DNA of 64,000 bases from Luteibaculum oceani (lineage in GTDB: Bacteria; Bacteroidota; Bacteroidia; Flavobacteriales_D; Luteibaculaceae), in contig NZ_VORB01000008.1 of NCBI RefSeq assembly GCF_007995015.1, positions 62,001 through 126,000 of the forward strand. The letters are read 5' to 3'. A program made the translations under genes and the position numbers. Below the pieces are notes generated by a model that saw only the letters and a list, made by a program, of their open reading frames with translations, searched no databases and was not told the origin of the DNA. Positions 5,949 through 10,194 of this stretch are shown one piece after another; position 1 is the stretch's first letter; each line of letters opens with the position of its first letter.

Positions 5949-8414
5949 ATGAAAAAACTTTTCTTCTTTTTCTTTTTATCCATCTGTATTTTAAATGCAA
6001 TTGGACAAAATCCCGAACGCCAAATAAAAACGAGTTCCGAAATTCTACTCGAGCTAAAGAAACTAGCAAAACCAACAAGAGTACTCTACGTTGCAGCACA
6101 TCCCGACGATGAAAATACACGTGTTATTTCTTGGTTAGAAAATCACCGTCACATTGAAACGGCGTATTTTTCGTTTACAAGAGGCGATGGCGGCCAGAAT
6201 TTAATTGGTAGCGAAAAAGGACCATTATTAGGGGTCCTGAGAACTCAAGAACTATTGGAAGCAAGAAAAATAGATGGCGCTACGCAGTTTTTCTCTCACG
6301 CCATAGACTTTGGATACTCTAAGTCTTCGGATGAAACCCTAGAAATTTGGAATAAGGACCAAGTGCTTGGAGATTTAGTTTATGCCATCAGGTATTTTAA
6401 ACCCGATTTAATCATAACCCGATTCCCACCTAACGCTCAGGCAGGACATGGTCACCACGCTGCCTCTGCTATTCTTGCTGCCGAGGCATTCGATCTAGCA
6501 CCTTTAGCATCGGCATACCCAAACCAACTTGGTAGAGTAAGTACATGGCAACCTTTCAGATTGGTATGGAATAGTTACTCCTGGAGAAGATCGGCTGAAG
6601 AATTAGAGGAAGATGTAAAAATAAATGTGGGTGAGGCAGTTCCCTTACTTGGTTTCTCTACTGGAGAAATTGCTTCACGAGCCAGAAGCATGCACAAATG
6701 CCAGGGCTTCGGAAGAAATTGGAATAGAGGTGAAATAACCGAGTATTTTAAATATACCAAAGGCGCCAATTTCACTTCGGATATTTTAGAAGGAATCAAC
6801 ACTTCTTGGGGAAGGTTTGACCAAGGGGAAAAAGTGCAACAATCATTTAATCAGCTGTTTAAAAATTACAACTACGAACATCCTTGGAAAAACATCGACA
6901 ACATGTTCGCGGTGCTCCGTGAAATTGAAAAGATGCCGGAAAATCCTTTTAAGGAAGATGCCACCTCCAAGATTAAAGGCTTAATCATTGCCTCGGCAAT
7001 GGTACATTTCGATGCTACCTCCTCTGAAAAATCAACCTCCATAAACGATTCGCTAAACATAGATTTAGAGTTAGTTGCATACCAACCTATAAATGTTGAG
7101 CTAAAGAAAATCACCCTTTTTAATGGGAATGAATTGAAGATAAACCAGAACATAGGTGCAAACAAAACCTGGGAAAAATCTATAAAAGCCCACGTAAATG
7201 GAAGTACAAAAATTTCAACCCCGTACTGGCTGGAGGAAGATGCTAGTTTTGGAAGCTACAGCTTTTCGAACCTAAAGGAACTAGAAATAGCCGTAAACAG
7301 CTCCGAGCTATGGGCATCAGCATCTATTCTCATTAACAACAAGCCTCTTGAAATTAAAACATCGATTTTTAACAAGGTAATAAAACCAGATTTCGGTGAA
7401 ATCTATGAACCCATTCCTGTTCTCGCCCCCATTACCTTCGAAATTAAAAACCCTTTACTCATAAGCATTAATGGTCAGTCGAGAGCACTTTCCTTTACCC
7501 TGAGTAATAATACGCCGAATGAAATCTCCAGGGAGTTAGATTTCATCCTCCCCAAAGGTTGGACCGGAGAATTAGAACAATCTATTTTAACCCTTAAACC
7601 TTTTGAAAAGGTAGAAAGTACAATACGAATTACTCCAACTGAAAATGCAGAAAACGGATACTTAAGGTTTTTCTGGAAAAATCTTCAAGACCCAGCATTG
7701 CAGTTACAGCAGGTTAAATATCCTCACATCCTTACGCAAACTATCCAGGACGGTGCAAAAATTAGATTGTCAGCGGTTAAAACTAAGCTAAGTAATAAGG
7801 TAATAGGATATATACCTGGTGCAGGTGACGATATTCCAGAGATCCTGCAAAATCTTGGTTATAAAGTAGAGGTATTAGAGCAGTCGAACTGGAGTAAGTC
7901 TAAATTAAGCAGTTACCACACTATTGTTACAGGTATAAGAGCATATAACACTAATGATTGGCTTGCAGAAAAGGCAGAGGATCTTTGGGCCTACGCTAAA
8001 AATGGAGGTAATTTATTGGTGCAGTACAATACTCTAAACTTCCTTTCCAACCTAAAAGCCCCCATTGCCCCTACAGACCTGCAATTAGGACGCAACCGAG
8101 TTACAAGGGAAGATGCGGAAATCACTATCCTAGAACCAAAACATCCTGCATTAAATGTTCCAAATAAAATTGGGGAAAAAGATTTTGAAAACTGGGTTCA
8201 AGAGCGTGGTTTATATTTTGCGGAATCCTGGAGTAAGGATTTTACGCCACTCTTTGAAATGAACGATCCTGGAGAAGAACCGCACCAAGGAAGTTTACTA
8301 ATTGGGAATTTCGGAAAAGGTCATATCACATACGCGGGGATTTCATTTTTCCGTCAATTACCAGCAGGGGTTCCCGGAGCATATCGCTTATTCGTTAACC
8401 TAATCGAAATGTAA
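5949..8414 (+). CDS. Secreted PIG-L/LmbE family deacetylase with C-terminal amidotransferase-like domain
   Basis: 821 residues. Signal peptide residues 1-19 (poly-Phe core, ending NAIGQ). The LmbE/PIG-L zinc-dependent N-deacetylase fold covers about 40-300: the metal motif AHPDDE is at 50-55 and the second zinc motif HGHH at 167-170. A beta-rich middle section (about 350-600, including an NEW3-like stretch with LDFILPKGWTGELE) leads to a C-terminal class I amidotransferase/ThuA-like domain (about 610-820, starting GYIPGAGDDIPEIL). Large PIG-L proteins of this build are common in Bacteroidota and are thought to remove acetyl groups from N-acetyl sugars; the substrate here is unknown. Its stop overlaps the next small gene (TAATG), making a three-gene unit with the symporter and suggesting that the released product is imported. 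Confidence 0.88.
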   Translation: MKKLFFFFFLSICILNAIGQNPERQIKTSSEILLELKKLAKPTRVLYVAAHPDDENTRVISWLENHRHIETAYFSFTRGDGGQNLIGSEKGPLLGVLRTQELLEARKIDGATQFFSHAIDFGYSKSSDETLEIWNKDQVLGDLVYAIRYFKPDLIITRFPPNAQAGHGHHAASAILAAEAFDLAPLASAYPNQLGRVSTWQPFRLVWNSYSWRRSAEELEEDVKINVGEAVPLLGFSTGEIASRARSMHKCQGFGRNWNRGEITEYFKYTKGANFTSDILEGINTSWGRFDQGEKVQQSFNQLFKNYNYEHPWKNIDNMFAVLREIEKMPENPFKEDATSKIKGLIIASAMVHFDATSSEKSTSINDSLNIDLELVAYQPINVELKKITLFNGNELKINQNIGANKTWEKSIKAHVNGSTKISTPYWLEEDASFGSYSFSNLKELEIAVNSSELWASASILINNKPLEIKTSIFNKVIKPDFGEIYEPIPVLAPITFEIKNPLLISINGQSRALSFTLSNNTPNEISRELDFILPKGWTGELEQSILTLKPFEKVESTIRITPTENAENGYLRFFWKNLQDPALQLQQVKYPHILTQTIQDGAKIRLSAVKTKLSNKVIGYIPGAGDDIPEILQNLGYKVEVLEQSNWSKSKLSSYHTIVTGIRAYNTNDWLAEKAEDLWAYAKNGGNLLVQYNTLNFLSNLKAPIAPTDLQLGRNRVTREDAEITILEPKHPALNVPNKIGEKDFENWVQERGLYFAESWSKDFTPLFEMNDPGEEPHQGSLLIGNFGKGHITYAGISFFRQLPAGVPGAYRLFVNLIEM

Positions 8415-8518
8415 TGGTGGATGATAAAAAATATTGGAGGAAACGCTACTGGTGGATTTTAGGATTTCTTCTCCTCCAGATTGTATTGTACTACTACCTA
8501 ACACAGCATTTTTCATGA
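8414..8518 (+). CDS. 34-residue single-span membrane mini-protein, coupled to deacetylase and symporter genes
   Basis: A short frame that begins ATGGTGGATG inside the deacetylase stop (TAATG) and ends in a TGA overlapping the symporter ATG (ATGA). The peptide starts with a charged, aromatic segment (MVDDKKYWRKRYWW) followed by one hydrophobic span (ILGFLLLQIVLYYYL) and a short polar tail. Overlaps of 1 and 4 bases at the two ends are typical of translational coupling and unlikely by chance. Known small subunits of sodium:solute symporters (DUF4212 type) start with a similar YWRKN-type motif before a helix but are longer, so this may be a reduced symporter partner. That link is inference; the coupling and the membrane span are seen directly. 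Confidence 0.55.
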   Translation: MVDDKKYWRKRYWWILGFLLLQIVLYYYLTQHFS

Positions 8519-10194
8519 ATTGGATAGATTGGTTGGTTCTATGCGGGACCCTAGCTTTTATCGTCCTTTTTGGATGGTATAAGAATAGAAAACAAGAAAG
8601 TCTAAGTTCTTATTTTCGAGGTAACAATAGCTTAAATTGGTGGGCAGTCGGATTATCAGTAATGGCTACACAGGCTAGTGCAATTACTTTTCTAAGTACA
8701 CCAGGACAAGCCTACGAGGATGGCATGCGATTCATCCAGTTTTATTTTGGTTTGCCCCTTGCACTTATAGTTGTATGTGCATTTTTTATCCCCCGCTTTG
8801 TTAATTTAAAGGTATTTACCGCTTACGAGTTTTTGGAAAAACGTTTCGATAGCAGAACTCGATCTTTTACCGCGCTTTTATTCTTAATTCAAAGGGGGCT
8901 TGCAGCTGGAATTACCATTTACGCCCCCGCAATTATTTTATCCACCCTACTTAATTGGCCACTGTACATAACCGTTATGATTATCGGTGTCCTGGTAATT
9001 ATATACACTGTAGCGGGCGGAACCCAGGCTGTAGCGCAAACCCAAAGGCAACAAATGGCCGTTATCATGGTGGGGATGGGAATGGCATTTTACATTTTGC
9101 TTAATTCCCTTCCCGAGGAAATGAAATTTGGAGATGCCTTGCACTTTGCTGGAGCCTTAGGCAAAATGAATATTGTGGATTTAACTCCAGATTTTAGTAA
9201 TAGGTACAACCTGTGGTCTGGTTTATTGGGTGGATTTTTTCTAGCACTCTCCTACTTCGGAACCGATCAATCGCAGGTAGCAAGATACATTGGTGGAAAA
9301 GATGTTAAAGCCGCTAGAATGGGGATGCTCTTTAATGCGGCTATTAAAATCCCAATGCAGTTTTTTATCCTACTAACCGGTGTTTTAGTGTTTGTTTTTT
9401 ACCAATTCAATCCAGCTCCAGTCTTTTTTAATAGTCCAGGATGGGCAGAAGCAAAGGCTGCCGACAGCGAAGAAAGCCTCCTAAGGTTAGAGGAAGACTA
9501 TCAAGCAATAGAGCAAAGTAAATTGGCAAATACCATTTCTTGGGAAGAAGCTTTGGATGATCCTGAAAAAATGGAGCGGATAAAATCTAGTATCCAAAAA
9601 GAACAGGAACTCAGAAATTCTGTAAAAGAGGAAATTGCTCTTATTAACCCCGAGGTAGAAACAAAGGATGGAGATTATGTTTTTCTACATTTCATTCTAA
9701 ACCAACTACCAATTGGATTGGTAGGATTACTGTTGGCGGTAATTTTCTCCGCAGCAATGTCCTCTACAGCTTCGGAAATTAATGCCTTGGCTGGTACTAC
9801 GATGATAGACTTTGTTAAGCGGTTTTCTGGTAAAACCTTTACTGAAAAAAGCAGTGTTCAAACCTCCAAATTGCTAACTCTAGCCTGGGGGATCTTGGCT
9901 ATTATTTTTGCAATGGCTGCCAATTTATTCGACAACCTAATTGAAGCCGTAAACATTCTTGGCTCCCTATTTTACGGAACCATACTGGGAGTTTTCCTAG
10001 TTGCCTTTTTCATGAAAAAAGTATCTGGAAAACCAACCTTTATTGCAGCCATAATTGCAGAAGCAGTGGTAATATTATTCTTCTGCTTTAGCGACCTTGG
10101 CTTTTTATGGTTTAACCTATTGGGCTGCGCCCTGGTAGTTATATTATCCTATTTATTTGAAGTTTCTGGGCTTAAAGGCTCCAGTTCAAATTAA
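8515..10194 (+). CDS. Sodium:solute symporter (SSS/SGLT family)
   Basis: 559 residues from the ATG at 8515, which is preferred because it overlaps the preceding mini-gene stop (ATGA) and places the first membrane helix at the N-terminus. About 13 membrane helices. SSS features include SSYFRGNNSLNWWAVGLSVMATQASAITFLSTPGQAY (read here as SSYFRGNNSLNWW then ATQASAITFLSTPGQ) near residues 32-65, YFGTDQSQVARYIGGKD near 255, and the sodium-site-like AAMSSTASEINALAG near 415. A charged, soluble insert of roughly 80 residues (about 310-390, rich in Glu, Lys and Ser) sits between helices. It probably imports a sugar or sugar-like product freed by the deacetylase encoded two genes upstream; the substrate is inferred from context only. 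Confidence 0.9.
   Translation: MNWIDWLVLCGTLAFIVLFGWYKNRKQESLSSYFRGNNSLNWWAVGLSVMATQASAITFLSTPGQAYEDGMRFIQFYFGLPLALIVVCAFFIPRFVNLKVFTAYEFLEKRFDSRTRSFTALLFLIQRGLAAGITIYAPAIILSTLLNWPLYITVMIIGVLVIIYTVAGGTQAVAQTQRQQMAVIMVGMGMAFYILLNSLPEEMKFGDALHFAGALGKMNIVDLTPDFSNRYNLWSGLLGGFFLALSYFGTDQSQVARYIGGKDVKAARMGMLFNAAIKIPMQFFILLTGVLVFVFYQFNPAPVFFNSPGWAEAKAADSEESLLRLEEDYQAIEQSKLANTISWEEALDDPEKMERIKSSIQKEQELRNSVKEEIALINPEVETKDGDYVFLHFILNQLPIGLVGLLLAVIFSAAMSSTASEINALAGTTMIDFVKRFSGKTFTEKSSVQTSKLLTLAWGILAIIFAMAANLFDNLIEAVNILGSLFYGTILGVFLVAFFMKKVSGKPTFIAAIIAEAVVILFFCFSDLGFLWFNLLGCALVVILSYLFEVSGLKGSSSN

Follow-up and report, generated by a model that had tools for sequence, protein, structure and literature searches.

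A conserved single-helix mini-protein as a candidate small subunit of a Bacteroidota sodium:solute symporter

Introduction

In Luteibaculum oceani an open reading frame of only 34 codons is wedged between the gene for an exported PIG-L family deacetylase and that for a sodium:solute symporter (SSS/SLC5), overlapping both. Is this frame a gene and, if so, to which of its neighbors does its product belong? A previous reading made from the DNA alone (the sequence-only reading) had proposed a membrane mini-gene coupled to both neighbors, whose product could serve the symporter as a small subunit of reduced size, similar to the DUF4212 proteins but much shorter. Genes for DUF4212 proteins, which like the mini-protein are small membrane proteins, directly precede SSS genes (of the VC_2705 type), and other Na+ symporters also have small membrane proteins beside them, as in the pairs DUF485/YjcH-ActP, YhdT-PanF, MctS-MctP and MetS-MetP, although these are longer than the mini-protein. 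The features under discussion are collected in Table 1; the window is the whole 64,000-nucleotide stretch of L. oceani DNA that was analyzed (from contig NZ_VORB01000008.1).

Table 1. Features at the mini-gene locus, with positions in the window.
Feature	Position	Strand	Evidence or remark
Exported PIG-L family deacetylase (PF02585), 821 aa, AHPDDE motif	5949..8414	+	Profile match; usual upstream neighbor; ends TAA
TAATG stop-start overlap, deacetylase to mini-gene	8412..8416	+	Last A of deacetylase TAA is the A of the mini-gene ATG
Mini-gene (34 aa, single membrane span, proposed symporter subunit)	8414..8518	+	Frame, slot, motif and helix conserved; purifying selection
W8-x3-Y12 motif, presumed cytosolic membrane edge of mini-protein	8435..8449	+	Conserved in aligned homologues
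Codon of mini-protein L29	8498..8500	+	L29 covaries with M218 and I220 of the symporter
ATGA start-stop overlap, mini-gene to symporter	8515..8518	+	Mini-gene TGA within ATGA; symporter ATG at 8515
SSF (PF00474) Na+/solute symporter, 559 aa, 13 predicted TM helices	8515..10194	+	Profile match, predicted structure; nearest solved relative SiaT

The Mini-Gene and Its Neighbors

The frame, which starts with ATG and encodes the peptide MVDDKKYWRKRYWWILGFLLLQIVLYYYLTQHFS, lies exactly where it had been placed (8414-8518, forward strand), and both overlaps, TAATG and ATGA, were confirmed in the sequence. These overlaps suggest translational coupling, by which one ribosome run would make both the mini-protein and the symporter chain.

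The downstream gene was assigned to SSS/SLC5 on the basis of its SSF profile match and the LeuT-type fold of its predicted model. The TTG at 8434 given as its start is the mechanical start of an ORF listing; homologues start at 8515. Membership of the VC_2705 subfamily was rejected, as the symporter reached 43.5 bits with TIGR03648, far short of the cut-off (320.75). The L. oceani genome carries further SSS genes besides this one. The upstream gene has both the PF02585 match and the HPDDE metal motif of PIG-L deacetylases. At some related loci (L037, L038, L094, L109, L116, and L118) another small ORF, 53-65 aa long, lies between the PIG-L gene and the mini-gene; its product (e.g., MEERKPDIRRSEMAFVFAIVLGLALGIMIKKIRVGILIGLILGVVIVLTGWLRTTRKK) is glycine-rich and apparently has two helices, and a Pfam search with it gave nothing above cut-off.

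The window mini-peptide matched no Pfam or PHROGs family, and its one NCBIfam match (E 0.58) is without meaning. When 66 homologues of the mini-protein were compared with family libraries, only scattered weak matches resulted, none of them convincing, and families of the YjcH, YhdT, MctS, or MetS type were absent from the 25 of 49 weakly matching families that were listed. The mini-protein profile gave chance-level matches to the PDB (e.g., PsbL, E 0.05), and homology to MAP17 was rejected, there being no MAP17 chain among these matches up to E 10. The suggested homology to DUF4212 was not borne out either: there was no PF13937 match at the locus, and the best score in the genome, which lies elsewhere, was 13.9 bits (E 0.18) against a cut-off of 30 bits. 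The PF13937 model is also 79 positions long, as opposed to the 34 aa of the mini-protein. A literature search found no paper on the mini-gene-symporter pair or on the peptide.

Conservation and Distribution

To survey the order, the symporter was searched in the whole genomes of 60 relatives, in which close orthologues have ~49-59% identity. A single-helix ORF of 32-47 aa, usually ending in ATGA, occupies the same slot ahead of the symporter in 28 of 29 order-level loci (the window's included). The sole exception is a genome (G026) in which the mini-gene has been cleanly lost and the deacetylase frame extends into the start of the symporter gene. In our final set, 329 loci include the start of the orthologous symporter, and a similar single-helix mini-ORF occupies the same slot at 283 of them, with loci in other classes of Bacteroidota among these; public examples are Phaeodactylibacter xiamenensis and metagenome-assembled genomes of Saprospiraceae, Chitinophagaceae, and Flavobacteriales. 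Conservation of the frame ahead of SSS genes was the check that the sequence-only reading had set for itself, and the result is strongly in its favor. Because the frame is conserved in the same slot across relatives, it is not a chance ORF.

Across the family most mini-proteins have 30-55 aa. The exact ATGA overlap occurs in 145 of 237 unique full-length mini-gene-symporter pairs, and at some loci the mini-gene is kept with a gap of tens of nucleotides, at most 190, between it and the symporter. Genomes normally have one clear copy, found with this symporter group; in a profile search of the L. oceani genome the present locus was the only clear match (E 6e-12).

The aligned homologues share a near-invariant W-x3-Y motif (W in 159 and Y in 169 of 170), followed by a helix of ~18 residues, F/Y and T/S near the helix end, and a short F/Y-S tail. 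The motif had originally been written YWRKxYW, but W-x3-Y is the better description. Similarly, the N-terminus described as basic-aromatic is in homologues more often acidic or proline-rich (PPxFKSW) than purely basic-aromatic. In 68 related pairs, which are not independent of one another, the pooled pS of the mini-gene was 0.69 and pN 0.25, giving a pN/pS of 0.36; the symporter had a pN/pS of 0.17 in the same pairs. The value for the mini-gene indicates that its amino acids are selected, and not the overlap alone. The mini-frame is therefore a protein-coding gene under purifying selection.

The gene is dispensable in some lineages, since it has been cleanly deleted there with the symporter kept. 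There are 36 unique loci, all with enough upstream DNA, that lack the mini-gene but retain the symporter, and clean losses, with the PIG-L gene abutting or overlapping the symporter start, were seen at L027/L090, L132, L177, L210, L225, and L226. These clean-loss loci are natural knock-outs in which properties of the symporter could be compared. Relative to the mini-gene-carrying symporters, those lacking it have gained no extra terminal helix, and the proposed contact residues (see below) showed no clear difference between the two groups. More distant symporter relatives, with starts like MHWIDWxVLxxFxxYTxWDG, have no mini-gene at their start (L140, L142, L201, and L208).

Which Neighbor Is the Partner?

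Among 198 genomes of the class, the symporter (E 1e-80 or better) was found in 99 and the mini-protein profile (E 0.001 or better) in 86. A symporter match was also present in 85 of these 86 genomes, and in the 86th (G129) the symporter is cut by a contig end; the co-occurrence in the 198 genomes has a Fisher p of 1.8e-39. Both genetic linkage and co-occurrence, as for a small SSS subunit, were thus found with one symporter group. A PIG-L gene adjoins in 160 of 207 unique loci, and at 39 mini-gene loci there is no PIG-L gene in the upstream DNA examined, while the linkage to the symporter persists. On these comparisons the symporter appears to be the tightest partner of the mini-gene, and the deacetylase a frequent operon neighbor.

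In two genomes the mini-gene lies directly after the deacetylase gene and the symporter is elsewhere (L227 in G165 and L229 in G174). In view of this arrangement the deacetylase, mini-protein, and symporter behave as a module, and the mini-gene is retained though unlinked from the symporter, which is evidence that it is kept as a gene in its own right.

Residue Covariation

A mean-field coupling analysis was conducted on 237 pairs (31 columns from the mini-protein and 547 from the symporter; effective number 162). The highest mini-protein-symporter couplings were L29-M218 (1.87), I15-I85 (1.53), L21-E444 (1.33), F18-A276 (1.33), and L29-I220 (1.26), similar in strength to the couplings within the symporter, which themselves resemble helix contacts between TM2 and TM7 (L84-A275, I92-V264). 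As nulls, mini-proteins were swapped between close relatives, which keeps most of the phylogeny but breaks the true pairs. In 11 such nulls the maximum was 1.10-1.64, and the second score was no higher than 1.19 in the seven for which a second value was listed, so the observed couplings exceed those of phylogeny-preserving nulls. Some of the high couplings make no sense, namely L21-E444 and pairs with a variable insert at symporter residues 299-398.

The strongest pair, L29-M218, is size-compensating: F-L (83), I-M (58), and L-M (31) predominate over F-M (5) and I-L (11). In a branch test, for which the symporter tree was built without the tested columns, there were 29 changes in the mini-protein and 26 in the symporter, which coincided on 10 branches (null mean 2.4; reached in 0 of 5000 replicates), all 10 in the size-compensating direction. 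This branch p is uncorrected, the pair having been picked beforehand as the best of ~17,000, and the swap nulls are therefore the fairer test. Three further pairs, I15-I85 (p 0.054), 29-220 (0.067), and 18-276 (0.93), did not reach significance in the branch test.

Structural Models

The AlphaFold model of the window symporter is of moderate quality (pLDDT 71) and has, by our reading, 13 helices. Its nearest solved structure is SiaT (5nv9/5nva; E 1e-45 by sequence, TM-score 0.74/0.86), with which it shares 24% identity; in the alignment, S416-S417 correspond to the two Na2-site serines on TM8 of SiaT. No small subunit is present in the solved SiaT entries. The symporter also differs from SiaT by an insert of ~80-100 residues between TM7 and TM8 (residues ~299-398; window 9409-9708), which is variable and charged, is predicted to contain helices and to be periplasmic, and is possibly a lid.

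In a natural in-frame read-through of mini-gene and symporter (L035), the mini-protein helix was predicted at low confidence (pLDDT 35-50), and this prediction consequently gives no docking evidence. The covarying pairs can be placed on the symporter model. I15-I85 and, more weakly, Y26-I74 fit antiparallel packing of the mini-protein on TM2 (symporter N-terminus outside); L25-Y193 and Y28-L196 fit parallel packing on TM5, and I15-L272 and F18-A276 parallel packing on TM7. L29-M218/I220 would bring the C-terminus to the TM5-TM6 loop (206, 218, 220). The top pairs agree significantly in depth only if the 299-398 insert is left out (permutation p ~0.01-0.06), with the reversed orientation disfavored, and the flank charges of the mini-protein weakly favor N-in. 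Our hypothesis is that the mini-protein docks on TM2/TM5/TM7, with its N-terminus in the cytosol and its C-terminus in the periplasm, on the TM5-TM6 loop.

Proposed Role and Alternatives

The mini-protein is, in our judgment, probably a single-span inner-membrane protein that serves as a small, almost always present subunit in one orthologous group of Bacteroidota Na+:solute symporters, stabilizing or activating the transporter. The proposal of a reduced symporter subunit is thus supported by linkage, co-occurrence, and residue covariation, all of it comparative evidence. The same genetic evidence would fit an assembly or quality-control factor that acts on symporter insertion or stability and is absent from the finished complex, and translation just ahead of the symporter would suit such a chaperone-like role. 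We nevertheless think this unlikely, as the covariation, which involves several faces, is in keeping with a lasting contact, although it says nothing on the duration of that contact. That the peptide has no role itself and its frame is only a leader, from which ribosomes re-initiate on the symporter ATG, would agree with the frequent ATGA overlap and with the TAATG in the window. Such a leader is improbable in view of the selection on its amino acids, the near-invariant W and Y, the constant hydrophobic helix, and the covariation with symporter residues, and mini-genes are also kept across gaps of up to 190 nucleotides or, as in G165 and G174, away from the symporter.

The G165/G174 arrangement and the frequency of adjoining PIG-L genes could instead mean that the mini-protein is a membrane anchor or export helper of the deacetylase, with the symporter merely in the same operon. 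The 39 loci without PIG-L speak against this, as does covariation: with the C-terminal part of the deacetylase the top coupling was near its swapped nulls (1.26 vs. 0.89-1.15; 140 loci), whereas with the symporter, in the same 140 loci, scores of 1.64 and 1.48 exceeded null maxima of 1.17 and 1.37. We accordingly give a deacetylase partner little credence. Many small membrane peptides have a similar size and a single helix, and the weak scattered family matches are of such kind, but an independent regulatory or toxin-like peptide carried in the operon is very improbable for a gene that normally occurs as one clear copy with this symporter group and whose residues covary with the symporter.

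As a symporter subunit, the mini-protein would stabilize the transporter, help insert it, or activate it, as MAP17 does for SGLT2. In the module as a whole, the periplasmic deacetylase may produce an amine for the symporter to import together with Na+. This amine could be an amino sugar, but any assignment of the substrate is guesswork.

Relation to MAP17 and Significance

The closest parallel is MAP17 (PDZK1IP1), a single TM helix bound to an SSS/SLC5 transporter (human SGLT2, SGLT1), as proposed for the mini-protein, and the window symporter model shares its fold with 8hez chain A (TM-score 0.74). MAP17 raises the activity and surface expression of SGLT2 (PMC12605011), and the extracellular half of its helix contacts SGLT2 TM13 (PMC10803289). 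MAP17 is, however, larger than the mini-protein, has soluble tails, and showed no sequence relation to it. It also sits on TM13, which the bacterial symporter would lack because it has 13 predicted helices, whereas the couplings of the mini-protein point to TM2/TM5/TM7. As it would act like MAP17 without a sequence relation, and is not DUF4212, the mini-protein is by these comparisons a putative new family within a known functional class, the small subunits of SSS symporters. We lean slightly toward the more specific view that this unnamed, phylum-wide single-helix family is an integral symporter subunit at TM2/TM5/TM7 and the TM5-TM6 loop, and a convergent bacterial counterpart of MAP17.

If this is correct, these symporters may fail in heterologous tests that omit the mini-gene. 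Among subunits of SSS transporters the mini-protein would be very small, and it would provide a simple system in bacteria for studying how one extra helix can tune a Na+ symporter, a question that is open for SGLT2 and MAP17. It would also mean that single-span SSS/SLC5 subunits exist in bacteria too, short enough for gene callers to miss.
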